A DNA stretch of 64,000 nucleotides from Zobellia uliginosa (GTDB lineage Bacteria; Bacteroidota; Bacteroidia; Flavobacteriales; Flavobacteriaceae), in NCBI RefSeq assembly GCF_900156625.1, contig NZ_FTOB01000001.1, positions 930,001 to 994,000 of the forward strand. The letters are read 5' to 3'. Under the pieces are notes generated by a model, which did no database searches, was not told where the DNA came from, and saw only the letters and a program-made list of their open reading frames with translations. Position numbers and translations under genes: made by a program. Shown here in pieces: positions 31,639-40,259 of the stretch. The stretch's first letter is position 1. Each line of letters opens with the position of its first letter.

Positions 31639-34131
31639 ATGGCTAAGAATTTAGTAATAGTAGAGTCACCTGCAAAGGCAAAAACGATAGAAAAGTTTTT
31701 AGGAAAGGATTATAAGGTAGAGTCCAGTTTCGGACATATTGCCGATTTACCTTCCAAAGAACTAGGGGTAGATGTCGAGAATGATTTTGAGCCCAAATAT
31801 ATTGTCGATAAAGACAAGAAAGCCTTGGTGAAAAAACTTGGGGATTTGGCCAAGAAAGCGGAAACGATATGGCTCGCAAGTGATGAAGACCGCGAGGGGG
31901 AGGCCATTTCGTGGCATTTAGCGGAAACTTTGGGGCTAGATAAAAACAAGACCAAACGTATTGTCTTTAACTCCATTACCAAGTCTGCCATACAGAAAGC
32001 GATAGAAAATCCACGAGAGATCAATTATAACTTGGTCAATGCCCAACAGGCCAGAAGGGTTTTAGACCGTCTGGTGGGGTATGAGCTTTCTCCCGTATTG
32101 TGGAAAAAGATTAAACCGGGACTTTCGGCCGGTAGGGTACAATCCGTTGCTGTTCGCCTTATAGTGGAACGGGAAAGGGATATAGAATCCTTTACCGCAC
32201 AAGCATCCTTTAGGGTGTCGGCAGAGTTCAAGACCCTTGAAGGTAGTGTGTTTACGGCGAAATTGAACAAAACCTTCCCTACAAAAGAAGAGGCGCAGGC
32301 CTTTTTGAACGAAAACATAGGGGCTGATTTTTCAGTTGGAAACCTAGATAAAAAACCGGCAAAAAAGTCGCCATCCGCACCTTTTACCACCTCTACCTTA
32401 CAACAGGAAGCAGCAAGAAAGCTCTATTTTTCGGTAGGGAGAACAATGCAAGTGGCGCAACGTCTGTATGAGGCGGGGCTTATTACCTATATGAGAACGG
32501 ATAGTGTGAACCTTTCGGGGGAAGCCATAGCCGCGGCCAAAGACGCCATTATAGGTAACTACGGCGAAAAATACAGTACCGTCCGTAACTTTAAAGGGAA
32601 GTCAAAAGGGGCACAAGAGGCTCACGAGGCCATTCGACCCACCGATATAACCAATCAGTCGCCATCACTTGAGCGCGACCAGTCCAAATTATACGAATTG
32701 ATTTGGAAGCGTACCATAGCCTCGCAGATGAGCGATGCCCAATTGGAACGTACGAACGTAAAAATTAAGGCAAGTACCCATTCAGAGCTATTTACGGCCA
32801 ATGGGGAGGTCATTAAGTTCGATGGTTTCCTTAAGGTGTATATGGAGGGCCTTGATGAAGAAGATGTGGCCGAAGAGCAAGAAGGAATGCTTCCTGCCAT
32901 GAAAGTGGGCGAAGCCTTAAAGAACAATTATATTACCGCGACCGAGCGTTTTTCAAGACCGCCATACCGCTTTACCGAAGCATCTTTGGTGAAAAAGCTC
33001 GAAGAACTGGGTATTGGCCGACCGTCTACATACGCGCCGACCATTTCCACTATTCAAAATAGGGGCTATGTAGAAAAAGGAACGGTTGAGGGTACGGAAC
33101 GAAATTATGTGCAGTTGCTTTTGGAAGCTGGTGCCGTAAAAGAGAAAAAACTTTCTGAAATGGTCGGTTCCGACAAAGGTAAGCTGGTGCCTACCGATAT
33201 CGGTATGATCGTAAACGACTTTTTGGTAAGTCATTTTGCCACTATACTTGATTACAATTTTACCGCCAAGGTAGAGGAAGATTTTGATGAGATCGCCGAG
33301 GGGGAAGAAGATTGGCAGAAGGTGATGAGGGATTTTTACAAAGATTTCCATCCGAATGTGCTCGATGTGCAAGAAAATGCCGATCGAGCCAGTGGCGAAC
33401 GTATTTTAGGCGAAGACCCTAAAACGGGCCGTCAAGTGTCCGTTCGTTTGGGCCGTTTTGGGCCTATGGTTCAAATGGGTACCGTTGATGATGAGGAAAA
33501 ACCCAAGTTTGCAAGCCTTTTGCCCGAACAGTCCTTGACCACTATAACTTACGAAGAGGCAATGGAGTTGTTCAAGCTTCCGCGAAAGTTAGGGGTTTAT
33601 GAAGGAGAGGAAATCGAGGCGAATGTAGGTAGGTTTGGACCTTATGTGCGTTTTGGGAAGAAATTCGTGTCCCTGGAAGCGGGAGAGAGCGCCTTTGACG
33701 TAAACTTTGACCGTGCGGTCGAGTTGATTAAGCAAAAGCAAAAGGCCGATGCCCCCATCTATACCTATGAAGGTAAGGAGGTCACTAAGGGAACCGGAAG
33801 GTTCGGGCCTTTTATCAAATGGGACGGTATGTTTATCAACGTCAACAAGAAATATGATTTCGACAACCTTTCGAATGAAGACCTTATTGAGTTGATCGAA
33901 GCTAAAAAGCAGAAAGAAATCGATAAGGTAGTGCAAAACTGGCCTGAAGAAGGTATCCGTATCGAAAAGGCACGTTGGGGCAGGCACAATATAATAAAAG
34001 GTAAGGTAAAGGTAGAGCTTGCCAAGACCGTTGATGCGGCCAAGATGTCTTTGGACGAGGCCAAAAAAATGATCGAACAGAAAACGCCGAAGAAAAAAGC
34101 AAAGGCCAAGCCCAAGGCCAAAAAGAAATAG
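31639..34131 (+). CDS. topA: DNA topoisomerase I
   Basis: A type IA topoisomerase that relaxes negative supercoils. In 830 residues the Toprim domain comes first (LVIVESPAKAKTIEKFLG, SDEDREGEAISWHL), then the topoisomerase core with the active-site tyrosine in YMRTDSVNLS (about 285). The C-terminal part has repeated small topoisomerase domains (GRFGPMVQ, GRFGPYVRFG, GRFGPFIKW) instead of cysteine zinc ribbons, and a lysine-rich tail. An overlapping ATG four codons earlier (AAT GGC TAA) is closed at once, so 31639 is the start. Downstream lies the ureohydrolase-like gene. Confidence 0.97.
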   Translation: MAKNLVIVESPAKAKTIEKFLGKDYKVESSFGHIADLPSKELGVDVENDFEPKYIVDKDKKALVKKLGDLAKKAETIWLASDEDREGEAISWHLAETLGLDKNKTKRIVFNSITKSAIQKAIENPREINYNLVNAQQARRVLDRLVGYELSPVLWKKIKPGLSAGRVQSVAVRLIVERERDIESFTAQASFRVSAEFKTLEGSVFTAKLNKTFPTKEEAQAFLNENIGADFSVGNLDKKPAKKSPSAPFTTSTLQQEAARKLYFSVGRTMQVAQRLYEAGLITYMRTDSVNLSGEAIAAAKDAIIGNYGEKYSTVRNFKGKSKGAQEAHEAIRPTDITNQSPSLERDQSKLYELIWKRTIASQMSDAQLERTNVKIKASTHSELFTANGEVIKFDGFLKVYMEGLDEEDVAEEQEGMLPAMKVGEALKNNYITATERFSRPPYRFTEASLVKKLEELGIGRPSTYAPTISTIQNRGYVEKGTVEGTERNYVQLLLEAGAVKEKKLSEMVGSDKGKLVPTDIGMIVNDFLVSHFATILDYNFTAKVEEDFDEIAEGEEDWQKVMRDFYKDFHPNVLDVQENADRASGERILGEDPKTGRQVSVRLGRFGPMVQMGTVDDEEKPKFASLLPEQSLTTITYEEAMELFKLPRKLGVYEGEEIEANVGRFGPYVRFGKKFVSLEAGESAFDVNFDRAVELIKQKQKADAPIYTYEGKEVTKGTGRFGPFIKWDGMFINVNKKYDFDNLSNEDLIELIEAKKQKEIDKVVQNWPEEGIRIEKARWGRHNIIKGKVKVELAKTVDAAKMSLDEAKKMIEQKTPKKKAKAKPKAKKK

Positions 34132-34242
34132 CTTGTGCCGATAGTTTCGTCCCTTAGGGCGGATTTTATAGAAGAAAATGAAAAAACGGAGGCGCATTAT
34201 ATGCGTCTCTATGATTTAAACACAAATAATCTTTCAAGATAA

Positions 34243-35400
34243 ATGGCATTTGATTTTTTGGTTCCAGTAGAAGATAAAGTAATTGCCCACTGTGAACTAT
34301 TTGCGGCCCAGTCTTTGGGCAAGCACACAAGGTTGCACACCAAAAGGGACGGTATTCCCGACCTCGAGGGGGTGTCTATTGCCATTCTAGGCGTGAAAGA
34401 ATCGAGAAACGCTTTTGAAAAGAAGACCGAAAAACTAGATGTCTCGGCTATACGGGTCCAATTGTACAAGTTGTTGTTGGGCAACTGGGATTCAAAATTG
34501 GCCGATATGGGCGATATTGAGGAAGGTGCAACGGTAGAGGATACGTATTTTGTGGTAAAGAATACCTTGGCGGCCCTTCTAGAGAAGAAAATCATACCTA
34601 TAGTAATAGGGGCGACCCAAGACATTACCTACCCGGCTTACCGATCGTTCGACGGTATTATCGACTTGGTCAATCTTGTGGCGGTAGACAGTAGGTTCGA
34701 TTTTGGAATGGACGATGAGCTGATTTCCTCGCATTCGTACATGAGCAAGATCATTACCGACAAGCCCAATAACCTTTTCAACTTCTCCAATATCGGCTAT
34801 CAGAGCTATTTTAACGCGCAAGAAGAGATCGATCTGATGGAGCGTTTGTTTTTTGATGCCTATCGCTTGGGTGAACTAGGGTCCGATATTTCCTTGGCGG
34901 AGCCGGTGCTGCGCAACGCCCATATGATCAGTATGGATGCCCGTGCCGTAAGGGCAAGTGAAATAGGGTTGTCCGATAATTTTTCGCCCAACGGTTTTAC
35001 CGGACGCGAGATATGTGCCATTGCCAGATATGCGGGAATAAGTGATAAAGTAAGCATATTTGGGCTCTATGAAATGGAGAATACCAATCAATCGTGTCAG
35101 CTGATGGCCCAGATAATTTGGTATTTCATCGAAGGTTATAATTTCCGAAGAAACGAATCTCCATTTGAGAGTAGTGAAAACTTTACCAAGTATATTGTTC
35201 CAACAGACACCGAGGAGCTTACCTTTCACAAGAGTCACCTGACCGATAGGTGGTGGGTGGAGGTCCCTTCTATTTTGACGCCGCATACTAAATCAAATTC
35301 AGTGGCGTTATTACCATGCACCAAAAAGGACTATCTGGAAGCATGCGACCAAAACATTCCTGAGCGGTGGTTCAAGGCCTATAAAAAAGGTTTTAATTGA
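34243..35400 (+). CDS. Ureohydrolase-fold protein with degraded metal site (annotated-as formimidoylglutamase type)
   Basis: A 385-residue protein of the arginase/agmatinase/formimidoylglutamase fold, slightly longer than usual. Active enzymes bind two Mn ions with six ligands in three motifs. Here GGxH is replaced by GATQ (PIVIGATQDITYP), DAHxD reads DSRFD, and SxDxDxxDP reads SMDARAVRA. Three ligands (two His and one Asp) are thus lost and three Asp remain. Hydrolase activity is unlikely; a structural or regulatory role fits better. It lies 124 bp ahead of gldK on the same strand. I am confident of the fold, less of the lack of activity. Confidence 0.8.
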   Translation: MAFDFLVPVEDKVIAHCELFAAQSLGKHTRLHTKRDGIPDLEGVSIAILGVKESRNAFEKKTEKLDVSAIRVQLYKLLLGNWDSKLADMGDIEEGATVEDTYFVVKNTLAALLEKKIIPIVIGATQDITYPAYRSFDGIIDLVNLVAVDSRFDFGMDDELISSHSYMSKIITDKPNNLFNFSNIGYQSYFNAQEEIDLMERLFFDAYRLGELGSDISLAEPVLRNAHMISMDARAVRASEIGLSDNFSPNGFTGREICAIARYAGISDKVSIFGLYEMENTNQSCQLMAQIIWYFIEGYNFRRNESPFESSENFTKYIVPTDTEELTFHKSHLTDRWWVEVPSILTPHTKSNSVALLPCTKKDYLEACDQNIPERWFKAYKKGFN

Positions 35401-35523: not shown

Positions 35524-36879
35524 ATGAAAAAGCTATTGTTATCATCTATAGCGTTTGTTTTTTTGCTCAGCAGTTGCGGGTCAAAAACCAAAGGAGAGCT
35601 AGTCGGGGTCCAAGGAAAGAAATGGTACCCTGAGAAACCTTATGGTATGGAGCTCATTCCAAGAGGTTCCTTTATCATGGGTAAAACCGAAGAAGACCAG
35701 GCTAAAGTTCTGAACGCACCAACAAAGACCGTTACGGTCAGATCGTTCTACATGGATGATACCGAGATTACGAACAGCGAGTATCGTCAGTTCGTAGAAT
35801 GGGTGCAGGATTCCATTACCAGGACACGATTGGCCATATTGGCCGATGAACTAGGTTTGGGGCCGGAAGACGGAGGTATTGGTGAGTATGCGTTCAAGGA
35901 TGCGGACACAACGAAACTTTCAGCTTACGACAAGTACATGTTGGATAATTATGCCGGCATGGGCGAAACTGGTTTTGAAGGTCGCGCTTTGAACAAAGAA
36001 GAAGATTTGATCTGGGATATCTCTGAGTACCCAGATGAGTATTATACCGAGGTTATGGATTCCTTGTACATTCCCGAGGAGGAATCGTATAACGGTCAGC
36101 GTACTATCGATGTAACCAAATTGAAGTACAAGTACAGCTGGATGGATATCGAAGCTGCCGCCCGTTCCAGAACCGGAAGCAGAAAAGATTTTATCCGTCA
36201 GGAAGAACTTGAAATCTATCCGGATACAACCGTTTGGATCCGTGATTTTGAATACTCGTACAATGAGCCGATGCACAACGATTATTTTTGGCACGATGCG
36301 TACAGCGAGTATCCTGTAGTGGGTGTGTCTTGGCAGCAAGCCAGGGCCTTCTGTAACTGGAGGACCAAGTTCAAGAACGATGATCAAAAAAGTAAAGGCA
36401 AGCAATTTGTAAACCAGTTCAGGTTACCTACCGAAGCTGAATGGGAATATGCTGCCAGAGGTGGTATCGAAGGAGGAACCTACCCATGGGGCGGACCTTA
36501 CGTGATAAGCGATACAGGTTGTTTTATGGCAAACTTTAAACCACAACGAGGCGATTATGCGGCCGATGCAGCTTTATATACTGTAGAAGCGAAATCATAT
36601 GAGCCTAATGACTTCAACCTTTACAACATGGCCGGTAACGTGTCTGAATGGACCAACTCCAGCTATGATCCATCATCTTACGAATTCGTTTCTACAATGA
36701 ACCCTAACGGTGGCGACGGGGCAAATGCTAGAAAAGTAATACGAGGTGGTTCTTGGAAAGATGTTGCTTACTTCCTACAGGTAAGTACAAGAGATTACGA
36801 ATATGCCGATTCGGCACGTAGTTACATCGGTTTCAGAACGGTACAGGATTACATGGGAGAAGAAGATTCAACACAATAG
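35524..36879 (+). CDS. gldK: Gliding motility / T9SS lipoprotein GldK
   Basis: A 451-residue outer-membrane-associated lipoprotein (lipobox LSSC, Cys about 18) of the type IX secretion core. GldK and GldN form the periplasmic ring beneath the outer membrane. The body is a formylglycine-generating-enzyme (FGE) fold: MELIPRGSFIMG near the start, FRLPTEAEWEYAARGG, MAGNVSEWT and VIRGGSWKD. The cysteines of true FGE are absent, so it is structural. It is the first of gldK-gldL-gldM-gldN. Confidence 0.97.
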   Translation: MKKLLLSSIAFVFLLSSCGSKTKGELVGVQGKKWYPEKPYGMELIPRGSFIMGKTEEDQAKVLNAPTKTVTVRSFYMDDTEITNSEYRQFVEWVQDSITRTRLAILADELGLGPEDGGIGEYAFKDADTTKLSAYDKYMLDNYAGMGETGFEGRALNKEEDLIWDISEYPDEYYTEVMDSLYIPEEESYNGQRTIDVTKLKYKYSWMDIEAAARSRTGSRKDFIRQEELEIYPDTTVWIRDFEYSYNEPMHNDYFWHDAYSEYPVVGVSWQQARAFCNWRTKFKNDDQKSKGKQFVNQFRLPTEAEWEYAARGGIEGGTYPWGGPYVISDTGCFMANFKPQRGDYAADAALYTVEAKSYEPNDFNLYNMAGNVSEWTNSSYDPSSYEFVSTMNPNGGDGANARKVIRGGSWKDVAYFLQVSTRDYEYADSARSYIGFRTVQDYMGEEDSTQ

Positions 36880-37024: not shown

Positions 37025-37681
37025 ATGGCACAGTCAAAATCAACAAAAAAGTTATTCAACATGGCCTACGGTCTTGGAGCGTCGGTAGTAATTATTGGTG
37101 CGTTATTCAAGATACTTCACTGGGAATTCGGACCTTTAACAGGTGGTCTTCTTTTGGCGATAGGTCTTATCACTGAAGCTCTTATTTTTGCCATTAGTGC
37201 ATTTGAGCCTGTAGATGACGAGTACGATTGGTCTTTAGTATATCCAGAATTGGCCGGCGGTGCTTCTTCAGGAGTTGCTAGAAGTAACGAAGCCCAGGAA
37301 ATCAAGGAAGCTGAAGCTTCATTGTCCGCTAAATTGGACAACTTGCTAAAAGAAGCCGGTGTCGATGCCAGCTTAATGGAGAGCCTTGGTTCTAGTATCC
37401 GCAACTTTGAAGGTGCTGCCAAAGGTATTGCCCCAACGGTTGATGCTATGGAGTCTACAAGAAAATATTCTGAGGAAATGGTTCAGGCCGCAGCTCAGAT
37501 GGAGTCTTTGAACAGCTTGTACAAAGTACAGTTGGAGAGCGCTAGCAAACAAGCTTCGGTAAACGAAGAAGTTGTACAAAATGCATCTGCCCTTAAAGAT
37601 CAAATGGAGTCATTGGCTACCAACCTTTCTTCTTTGAACGGAGTCTACGGAGGTATGTTGACTGCAATGAACAGAAACTAA
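37025..37681 (+). CDS. gldL: Gliding motility / T9SS inner-membrane motor protein GldL
   Basis: A 218-residue protein with two closely spaced N-terminal membrane helices (about 15-35 and 40-60), the second with the FGPLTGGLLLAIGLITEALIF... region carrying a buried glutamate typical of proton-driven motors, and a cytoplasmic coiled-coil tail. With GldM it forms the proton-powered GldLM motor of T9SS and gliding. It lies 145 bp after gldK and 56 bp before gldM. Confidence 0.97.
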   Translation: MAQSKSTKKLFNMAYGLGASVVIIGALFKILHWEFGPLTGGLLLAIGLITEALIFAISAFEPVDDEYDWSLVYPELAGGASSGVARSNEAQEIKEAEASLSAKLDNLLKEAGVDASLMESLGSSIRNFEGAAKGIAPTVDAMESTRKYSEEMVQAAAQMESLNSLYKVQLESASKQASVNEEVVQNASALKDQMESLATNLSSLNGVYGGMLTAMNRN

Positions 37682-37737: not shown

Positions 37738-39297
37738 ATGGCAGGAGGAAAAGCAACACCACGTCAGAAGATGATCAATCTTATGTATTTGATCTTCATC
37801 GCTATGCTGGCGTTAAACATGAGTAAAGAAGTACTTGCAGCTTTCGGTATTATGAACGAAAAGATGGAGGCTTCTAACGCGAAGACCACAGAAAGTAACC
37901 TAGCTTTCTTAGACGGTCTAGAAACTAAAGCTTCCGAAGATTCGGAGAAATACGGAAAGCTTTATCAAGATGCCCAAAAAATCAAGCAATTGTCGCAAGA
38001 TTATTACGACTATCTTGAGGGTCTTAAACAGGGAATGACAGAAGGTCTGGAAGATGCAAAAGATTATGCACGAATGGACAATTCCGATTTCTTAGATCAA
38101 AAATTCTTTCAAGGCGATAATCTTTCCGAAGGAGGAAAGGAGTTCATGAAAAGAATCAATGATTACCGTACACAAGTTGCGGCTATCGTACCAAAAGATT
38201 TGAAAGAATCTGTAAATGTCCGCTTCAAGACCGGTGATGAAAATGGTCAGGAAGTAAAAAGGGACGGTACAAAACAAGATTGGATCAATTACCACTACGA
38301 AGGATATCCTTTAGTAGCTTCTTTAGCCAAGATTACTGCGCTTCAAGCAGACGTTAAGGCCACTGAGGAAGACGCTCTGAAAAGAATGTTGGAAGGTGAG
38401 TTGACCAGCCAAGTATCACTTAAGAATTTTGCAACATCGCTACAGGCTAGTAAGTCTGCCTTTTATGCCGGTGAGAAGTACGACGGTAAGATTATCATTA
38501 GTAAAACCGATAATTCTTCTACACCAGTTAAAGCCGAGTTGACCCTTGATGGAAGAAAACTTTCTGAAGGTACCGACTATAAATTAGAGGCCGGTGGTGT
38601 TAAAATGTTGATCGGTGCAGGTGCTGCAGGTGATCACGTTGTAGAAGGTACATTGTACTTTAAGCAAGATGGCGAAGAGATTCCCGTACCGGTTAAGAAT
38701 AGTTTTGCTACCATTAGCAAGCCTAATGCTGCTTTGATCGCTGCCGATAAGATGAACGTTGTTTATCGTGGTGTAGCTAACCCAATGAGTATTTCTATAC
38801 CGGGTATACCTAATAACAAAGTTAACGCTTCTGCGCCTGGTTTGAAATCCGTAGGTGGTAGCAAGTATGTTATGAACCCTGGTAAAGGTAGAACGGTTAC
38901 GATTACCGCATCCGGTAAATTGCCCGATGGTCAGACCGTATCTTCTAAATCTGAGTTCAGAATTAAGGATATTCCAAGACCTGCCGGTTCTGTAAGTAAG
39001 CAGACAGGTAGTGCTAAAATGCCTAGGGCTAACATGGAAATCGCCACTATCGGTGCAATGTTAGAGGACTTTGATTTTGACTTGAACCTTGCCGTTAGCG
39101 GATTTAAGTTCAAGGTTCCTGGTCAGCCTACCGTAAGCGTAAACGGAAACAGATTGAACGCTAATGCCAAGTCGGCCCTTAAGAGAGCCAAAAGAGGTGA
39201 CGCTGTTCAGATATTCGATATCCAAGCTTACATTACAAATAACAAGAGTTATAAATTGAAGAAAGTATCTCCGGTTGTAGTGGAGATAACAAACTAA
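37738..39297 (+). CDS. gldM: Gliding motility / T9SS protein GldM
   Basis: A 519-residue bitopic protein: an N-terminal membrane helix (about 12-33, NLMYLIFIAMLALNMSKEVL with a conserved GGKATPRQKM start), then four periplasmic domains, the first helical (about 40-215) and the rest beta-rich. It transmits motion of the GldL motor across the periplasm to the GldK-GldN ring. The gene follows gldL by 56 bp. A stem-loop separates it from gldN. Confidence 0.97.
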   Translation: MAGGKATPRQKMINLMYLIFIAMLALNMSKEVLAAFGIMNEKMEASNAKTTESNLAFLDGLETKASEDSEKYGKLYQDAQKIKQLSQDYYDYLEGLKQGMTEGLEDAKDYARMDNSDFLDQKFFQGDNLSEGGKEFMKRINDYRTQVAAIVPKDLKESVNVRFKTGDENGQEVKRDGTKQDWINYHYEGYPLVASLAKITALQADVKATEEDALKRMLEGELTSQVSLKNFATSLQASKSAFYAGEKYDGKIIISKTDNSSTPVKAELTLDGRKLSEGTDYKLEAGGVKMLIGAGAAGDHVVEGTLYFKQDGEEIPVPVKNSFATISKPNAALIAADKMNVVYRGVANPMSISIPGIPNNKVNASAPGLKSVGGSKYVMNPGKGRTVTITASGKLPDGQTVSSKSEFRIKDIPRPAGSVSKQTGSAKMPRANMEIATIGAMLEDFDFDLNLAVSGFKFKVPGQPTVSVNGNRLNANAKSALKRAKRGDAVQIFDIQAYITNNKSYKLKKVSPVVVEITN

Positions 39298-39356: not shown

Positions 39357-40259
39357 ATGAATTGGAAAAATGCTTTAGTAATTGGTGCAGTAACTTTGTT
39401 ACCGGTTTCCATGATGGCCCAGGCGAACATCTTGAACGCCAAAAAGCCCGAGGAAATAGGTGTCAAGACCGAAGCTCAGAAAGCTTTGGACAATGATGCT
39501 CCCCTTGAGTATGGTTATGTTGATGATCGTGACATCCTTTGGTCTAAGACCGTTTGGGAAGTTATCGACCTTGACGAAAGGGTGAACTTCCCCTTGTATT
39601 ACCCTACAGACACTATCGACATAGGCAACGACAGAAGATCATTGTACGATGTGCTTATTAAGAACATCAAAAATGGTAGACTGAAAGATGTGTATGCAGA
39701 TTCTTACTTTACCGATAAACGAAAGTTTAGTGATCTTGAGAGTACACTGCAAAAGGTAGATACTACCGATTACGGTTACGAACAGATCAATGCTGGGGAA
39801 GAATTATCTCCCGAGTATGTAATGAAGAGAACCCTTACCGCAGCCGATATTGAGGAGTACCGAATTAAAGGTATGTGGTATTTTGATAAACGTCAAGGTG
39901 AGCTAAAGTACCGCTTGTTAGGTATAGCCCCGGTTGCCCCCGATGTTAACTTTATTGATGATGACTCTATGGATCCCAGTGATGCTAAAGTTGAGCTTTT
40001 TTGGGTATGGTACCCAGATGCCCGACAGATATTGCATGAGGCCAAAGTCTTTAACCAAAGAAACTCTGCACAGCCTATCTCTTTCGATATGTTGCTTAAC
40101 GCAAGACGTTTCAACGGTGTAATCTATAGGGAAGACAACGTTCATGGCGATCGAAAGGTAAACGATTACATAACCGACAACGCCTTGTTCCAATTGCTTG
40201 AGGCCACTAGGATTCAAGAGGTCATTAGAGACCGTGAACAAGATATGTGGGCTTACTAG
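39357..40259 (+). CDS. gldN: Gliding motility / T9SS periplasmic protein GldN
   Basis: A 300-residue secreted protein with an N-terminal signal peptide (about 1-21, ending MMAQ). The mature part shows the GldN/PorN pattern (YVDDRDILWSKTVWEVIDLDERVN, LTAADIEEYRIKGMWYFDKRQGEL and the RRFNGVIYREDNV block). It assembles with GldK into the periplasmic ring of T9SS. It is the last gld gene of the operon and is followed by a strong terminator. Confidence 0.96.
   Translation: MNWKNALVIGAVTLLPVSMMAQANILNAKKPEEIGVKTEAQKALDNDAPLEYGYVDDRDILWSKTVWEVIDLDERVNFPLYYPTDTIDIGNDRRSLYDVLIKNIKNGRLKDVYADSYFTDKRKFSDLESTLQKVDTTDYGYEQINAGEELSPEYVMKRTLTAADIEEYRIKGMWYFDKRQGELKYRLLGIAPVAPDVNFIDDDSMDPSDAKVELFWVWYPDARQILHEAKVFNQRNSAQPISFDMLLNARRFNGVIYREDNVHGDRKVNDYITDNALFQLLEATRIQEVIRDREQDMWAY

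Follow-up and report, generated by a model that had tools for sequence, protein, structure and literature searches.

In the stretch of DNA analysed here (the window, 64,000 nucleotides), a gene upstream of gldK encodes a ureohydrolase-like protein in which the normal six-ligand binuclear metal site is absent. The family to which this protein belongs forms one clade, and it persists in SprA-less genomes of one bacterial family. Since the protein has lost this site, occurs throughout most of a bacterial class and persists where a key part of the adjoining secretion machinery (T9SS) is gone, it is probably non-enzymatic. Our tentative reading, to which we give slightly less than an even chance, is that this pseudoenzyme is a cytoplasmic binding or regulatory protein that is not dedicated to T9SS.

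Table 1. The pseudoenzyme gene, its altered motifs and its neighbours in the window
Feature	Positions	Strand	Basis
CDS, ureohydrolase-like pseudoenzyme, 385 aa	34243..35400	+	ORF and translation, profile, structure model
GATQD (residues 123-127) in place of GGxH; first metal ligand His to Gln	34609..34623	+	Sequence and alignment
DSRFD (residues 149-153) in place of DAHxD; His to Arg, both Asp retained	34687..34701	+	Sequence and alignment
SMDARAVRA (residues 230-238) in place of SxDxDxxDP; second Asp to Arg, first Asp retained	34930..34956	+	Sequence and alignment
Family-specific C-terminal region (residues 308-385; RWW, PC, DY, PERW)	35164..35397	+	Alignment, models, profile scan
topA, DNA topoisomerase I; conserved on the upstream side, in relatives frequently only a few bp away	31639..34131	+	NCBIfam
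gldK	35524..36879	+	NCBIfam model
gldL	37025..37681	+	NCBIfam model
gldM	37738..39297	+	NCBIfam model
gldN	39357..40259	+	NCBIfam model

The protein is 93% identical to its orthologue in the nearest named relative, Z. uliginosa. In the window, 111 bases separate the topA stop codon from the ATG of the pseudoenzyme gene, and 123 bases separate the latter from gldK. A short inverted repeat was seen by eye at 34189-34209, between topA and the pseudoenzyme gene; this gap measures only a few bp in the majority of the 80 nearest loci.

Fold, label and metal ligands

The window protein matches the Pfam Arginase family (PF00491) at 29.9 bits, above the gathering cut-off of 22, and 28 of 29 diverse members of its own family match PF00491 at E≤0.01. 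The AlphaFold2 model (pLDDT 83) has the arginase fold, as residues 20-303 superimpose on the T. cruzi structure 2a0m (Z 31.9, rmsd 2.4, 271 residues). In the fold search, the formiminoglutamase structures ranked after 2a0m were tied, with metformin hydrolase, agmatinases and arginases coming next; among the matches listed, none extends past residue 308.

Both the best fold match (2a0m) and the best sequence-profile match in the PDB (3m1r, E 4.1e-19) are structures of HutG (TIGR01227; PDB 3m1r, 1xfk and 4mxr/2a0m). Unlike HutG, the window protein lacks three of the six ligands and falls far under the curated cut-off of TIGR01227 (28.4 bits against 229.15). The alignments to HutG structures, among the matches listed, stop at about residue 308, such that the C-terminal region of the pseudoenzyme is uncovered. 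HutG is found at a separate locus of the same genome (L003), where it scores 292.5 bits, and the two remaining PF00491 genes of this genome (L001 and L002) are agmatinase-type, with 196.8 and 221.4 bits against a cut-off of 174.3. Since the window protein scores so low and a HutG above the cut-off sits elsewhere, the label "formimidoylglutamase" does not fit the window protein as judged by these profiles, which bears out the original prediction that such labels are likely wrong. A protein that resembles an enzyme whose active site it lacks, and that is matched in most genomes of its class (see below), can distort pathway predictions. In the accessible part of one species description (PMC11278836), histidine degradation was not detected, formiminoglutamase excepted; this pattern is what mislabelling of a pseudoenzyme relative would produce.

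The replacements named in the original prediction, GATQ, DSRFD and SMDARAVRA for GGxH, DAHxD and SxDxDxxDP, are present (residues 123-126, 149-153 and 230-238). Aligned to ureohydrolases, the six ligand positions of the window protein read Q-D-R-D-D-R, compared to H-D-H-D-D-D in the three other PF00491 proteins of the genome. Exactly three of the six His/Asp ligands are therefore changed, as predicted, and the loss is family-wide. We defined the family as hits of more than 100 bits that reach model position 370 or beyond among all loci compared (206 loci, 188 distinct ORFs), which excluded 18 other ureohydrolase hits, including the cut-off L064. None of the 188 ORFs has all six ligands; thus, the change in the window is neither a sequencing error nor private to this protein. 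Of 12 relatives outside the class (L201-L212), nine read HDHDDD and three differ at one position, and two further relatives inside the class (L218 and L219) also read HDHDDD.

We take the arginase ligands to be H101, D124, D128 and D232 for the first metal and H126, D124, D232 and D234 for the second. Among the 188 family ORFs, the position of H101 holds Gln in 156 and His in 13. His at the H126 position was found in three members and Asp at the D234 position in three, and in no member were both present; both of these second-metal-specific ligands are missing in 182. The Asp triad of the first metal (D124, D128 and D232) is complete in 164 ORFs and is accompanied by Gln or His at the first position in 160. 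In the other 24 members the triad is partly lost, with the C-terminal region still kept, and the alignment of strongly diverged members is unsure at the ligand columns. Since H126 and D234 are both missing in nearly all members and the triad is whole in most, the alignment indicates that ligand loss is selective for the second metal and that the first-metal set mostly remains. At position 151, formerly the second His, 18 different residues occur across the family. In one family of genomes (f63; L213-L216), the protein is strongly degenerate, with metal motifs hardly recognisable and the C-terminal half kept.

The C-terminal region comprises about 80 residues and holds part of the family's most conserved sites. 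Across the 109 members that do not belong to the 80 nearest loci, conservation is 1.00 at W293, R224, E220, C359, F328 and G251, compared to only 0.87-0.88 for the ligand positions D149 and D232 (window numbering). Nine C-terminal positions were examined in the 17 catalytic-type relatives; these show gaps throughout, apart from one Asp at 363. When 29 diverse members were scanned with Pfam, no family was assigned to this region in 28, and one gave a weak hit to another family (E 0.0073). For the C-terminal part alone (residues 303-385; model pLDDT 74), Foldseek returned no match at E≤0.001 and the best VIA-align Z was 4.0; thus, these searches do not reveal a known fold, nor do they establish a new one.

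In a maximum-likelihood tree of 55 sequences (38 from the family and 17 other or catalytic-type), a branch with support of 100/100 separates the family from the rest; several sequences sit on long branches, which leaves their position inside the tree uncertain. On this tree, a HutG-like ancestor with a single loss of ligands would be the simplest reading.

Neighbourhood and distribution of the gene

The record titles of the 80 loci nearest to the window's name flavobacterial genera in nearly every case. All 80 have gldK downstream, and 78 have topA upstream; the two loci lacking topA start at a contig edge. With starts set at the first ATG of the open frame, which makes single values rough, the gap between topA and the pseudoenzyme gene has a median of 3 bp and is at most 30 bp in 62 of 78 loci. 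The gap to gldK has a median of 158 bp, is at most 270 bp and is 30 bp or less in none of the 80. A promoter motif occurred in this second gap once in 80 loci in strict form (0.7 in shuffled sequences) and five times in relaxed form (1.1 in shuffles). Other genes recur within 10 kb, encoding a MiaB-type protein (75 loci), a sigma-54 regulator (68), a downstream oxidoreductase (74) and an ABC-F-type protein (71). Since these unrelated genes are kept in the same block, conservation applies to the entire block. The conserved synteny with gldK is a poor guide to function.

We also compared 56 representatives, one per family. In 28, topA and gldKLMN lie on the two sides of the gene; two have gldK only, three have topA only (two of these near a contig end) and 23 have neither, although contig ends limit at least four of the 23 and another (L145) has topA 2.5 kb away. 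With neither topA nor gldK nearby in 23 of 56, the gene has no constant operon partner. Of 32 representatives beyond the 80 nearest loci, 14 have a topA gap of 30 bp or less. All 30 gldK-linked representatives (among L147-L200) carry an ORF of 300-351 aa, the size of PorP/SprF, between the gene and gldK, as do L234 and L235. Five intervening ORFs were tested, three of them from these 30, and all five matched PorP/SprF (TIGR03519). In the 80 nearest loci, the gap to gldK leaves no room for such an ORF. Thus, the description of the gene as lying directly upstream of the T9SS core holds in the window's family and breaks down in the 30 gldK-linked representatives of other families. Where the gene is unlinked from gldK (25 loci), an SDR epimerase is nearby in 11 and PKD/sorting-domain proteins in four, and no constant partner gene was found among the 25.

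Several loci have features of their own. In family f2, three loci (L145, L220 and L233) have a strongly diverged orthologue that has lost most ligands and lies away from gldKLMN, still beside or near topA; two other f2 genomes, G558 (L231) and G657 (L230), keep the old linkage. The large proteins encoded downstream in L179, L193, L194 and L213 form one similarity cluster, and the three tested (one from L179, two from L213) have PKD and/or T9SS type B sorting domains. A tandem pair of gldN-like genes occurs in L093, L105, L108 and other Flavobacterium loci. One locus titled as a Bifidobacterium breve MAG (L129) carries a flavobacterial topA-to-gldN locus and is probably mislabelled or contaminated.

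Across the sampled class, which we take to be Bacteroidia (GTDB name), the pseudoenzyme was matched in 276 of 295 genomes and GldM in 280 (E≤0.001), although a few of the 276, such as those in G061 and G098 (E about 5e-8), are weak matches that may represent catalytic relatives. Both proteins were matched in 268 genomes, the pseudoenzyme only in eight (just two of which, G256 and G059, reach 95% completeness or more), GldM only in 12 (four of them less than 80% complete) and neither in seven. GldM-bearing members lacking the pseudoenzyme occur in families f33, f57, f67 and f68, which we guess to be Bacteroidales. In family f113, which has very small genomes (0.3-0.6 Mb), all four genomes tested lack both proteins, an absence that carries no information on a link between the two. 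Plasmids and viral contigs gave no match to the window protein, with a single phage-family match at E 0.076 only.

In a sample of the phylum (198 genomes at least 90% complete), GldM scored over the cut-off in 49 genomes, and in 48 of these a match to the family extends to position 376 or beyond; the exception is G242. Three further genomes have GldM hits below the cut-off. In the other 149, among the matches listed, none goes past position 319, and hence none reaches into the C-terminal part. As this co-occurrence is confounded with class membership, tests within the class were needed.

Relation to T9SS

SprA-less relatives provide a natural test that separates the gene from the adjoining secretion system. 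In family f41, we searched 121 genomes at least 95% complete for SprA and found it in 108. All 13 genomes lacking a SprA hit keep the pseudoenzyme (526-562 bits), as do all 31 tested of the 108 SprA-bearing genomes (507-555 bits). The 13 genomes, which were classed by SprA alone, fall in three genera (g44, g308 and g309), two of which also have SprA-bearing members. One of them (G256) also has no GldM match. Another of the 13, the one-contig G040 (L232), has gldK-gldN and, divergently, gldM-gldL; as SprA gave no hit there, this genome apparently has genes for motor and ring but no translocon. As G256 lacks GldM and G040 has gldK, gldL, gldM and gldN, the extent of T9SS loss differs among these genomes. 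We found nothing on SprA in Algoriphagus in the open-licence literature.

The reverse case also occurs, as three genomes (G463, G465 and G466) have GldM and SprA hits and no family member. GldJ scored over the cut-off in G463 and G465 and below it in G466 (354.5 bits). In G466, the one ureohydrolase hit is of the catalytic type, at 49 bits, and covers positions 117-299 only; in G465, topA, one 315-aa ORF and gldK follow in direct succession. Two genomes in which GldM and the pseudoenzyme are both missing (G494 and G505) might be read as cases of co-loss. We do not count them as such, since both have full-length SprA, and a single deletion or an assembly gap accounts better for the absence of the linked locus.

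We also examined the covariation of evolutionary rates in three sets (54, 74 and 22 taxa) that include housekeeping controls and an all-gene background (Gld proteins, TopA and the sigma-54 regulator are given in this order of sets). Correlations with the pseudoenzyme were weak for GldK (0.26, 0.27 and 0.39), GldN (0.27, 0.30 and 0.07) and TopA (0.21, 0.26 and 0.21). The sigma-54 regulator came close behind GldK and GldN (0.23, 0.25 and 0.25); values for GldL (0.10, -0.09 and -0.19) and GldM (-0.04, -0.08 and -0.11) were lower. In the same sets, known pairs gave 0.37, 0.29 and 0.26 (GldK-GldN) and 0.32, 0.34 and 0.45 (GldL-GldM). Covariation thus tilts weakly toward the T9SS ring, not much beyond a housekeeping regulator. 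A six-gene version had given 0.53 for TopA and the pseudoenzyme. We set this value aside because all four background genes were Gld proteins, so that any non-Gld pair would tend to correlate.

Possible roles

From the position of the gene, the original prediction derived a non-enzymatic role in secretion or gliding. The protein could, for example, be a cytoplasmic accessory that acts on the part of GldL facing the cytoplasm or helps to assemble the GldK/GldN ring. The presence of gldK downstream in all 80 nearest loci and in 30 of 56 representatives agrees with such a role, as do the near-complete co-occurrence with GldM in the phylum sample, where the C-terminal part was matched in none of the other 149 genomes among the matches listed, and the fact that in every controlled set rate covariation peaked with GldN or GldK. 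However, the synteny is common to unrelated genes, the phylum-wide co-occurrence is confounded with class membership, and inside the class the association fails both ways: the protein is kept in the 13 SprA-less f41 genomes, including the one that also lacks GldM, and is missing from three T9SS-bearing genomes. On these loss patterns, we reject a dedicated T9SS function as the sole role and regard an accessory role in secretion or gliding as unlikely. Since rate covariation, though weak, is highest with GldN or GldK, the pseudoenzyme may have a secondary link to T9SS.

An enzyme of changed chemistry, in which one metal is held by Gln/His and three Asp, also appears improbable to us. This set of residues is present in 160 of 188 members, and position 277, which is Glu in all 17 catalytic-type relatives, is still Glu in 114 of 188 family ORFs. 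Nevertheless, the freedom at position 151, the 24 members that keep the C-terminal region with a partly lost triad, and the lower conservation of ligand positions than of several non-catalytic sites all argue against catalysis. We give a still smaller chance to a non-catalytic subunit that partners an active ureohydrolase paralogue, as MetCb does for MetCa in metformin hydrolase. According to the portions of two reports that were available (PMC11271267, PMC11399263), MetCb/MefH-beta is a ureohydrolase devoid of metal that serves an active cognate as partner; the first describes a protein that lost five of six ligands, retained the fold and is essential to the activity of the pair. Metformin hydrolase chains are among the best fold matches of the window protein, and three ligand-complete paralogues exist in the window's genome. 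Against this, no active paralogue adjoins the gene, which unlike metCaCb is flanked by topA and gldK, and an active partner would have to be as widespread as the protein itself, which is retained even in genomes of 1.4-2.0 Mb. The two systems share the ureohydrolase fold and a degenerate metal site (in the accessible text, five of six ligands changed in one report and four of six in the other; PMC11271267, PMC11399263). They differ in that the MetCb/MefH-beta gene adjoins that of its active partner, the pair forming one enzyme, while the window family mostly keeps the Asp triad and is distributed class-wide.

The reading that we prefer, a cytoplasmic binding or regulatory pseudoenzyme not dedicated to T9SS, can be put as follows. 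Before Bacteroidia radiated, a HutG-like ureohydrolase would have lost its second-metal ligands, most simply in a single event, and the degenerate protein would then have been retained as a pseudoenzyme. We infer a cytoplasmic location because no signal segment was seen by eye. The protein may act by binding another protein or a small ligand via E220, R224 and W293 together with C-terminal F328, RWW (336-338), C359, DY (363-364), P373 and W376. With Gln/His and the Asp triad left, the site could bind one metal at most, or maintain a structural network. That the triad is complete in 164 of 188 members counts against our preferred reading, as a purely structural protein hardly needs it.

Gene proximity makes TopA a candidate partner, and in Flavobacteriaceae the gene is probably co-expressed with topA. 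Against this link are the short topA gap in just 14 of 32 representatives outside the 80 nearest loci and a covariation with TopA that is not above that with GldK. In a more speculative version, to which we give very little weight, the emptied pocket, holding one metal or a guanidino/polyamine ligand, and the new C-terminal region would regulate a housekeeping machine, possibly topoisomerase I, making the protein a nitrogen/polyamine sensor for DNA topology in Bacteroidia.

In the open-licence literature on formimidoylglutamase or ureohydrolase with gldK, T9SS or essential genes, we found no description of a gldK-adjacent ureohydrolase-like gene. No mention was found there of the locus tag Fjoh_1852. 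The available part of an article on gld genes (PMC10936215) contains no mention of the pseudoenzyme gene.

Loss of the metal site has a parallel in eukaryotes that we compared by description only. By its title, a 2015 study from Hai et al. reportedly concerns a T. brucei arginase-like protein without the binuclear manganese cluster, the same kind of loss as in the window family. In the accessible part of a separate source, the T. brucei arginase-like protein does not convert arginine to ornithine (PMC5602898).
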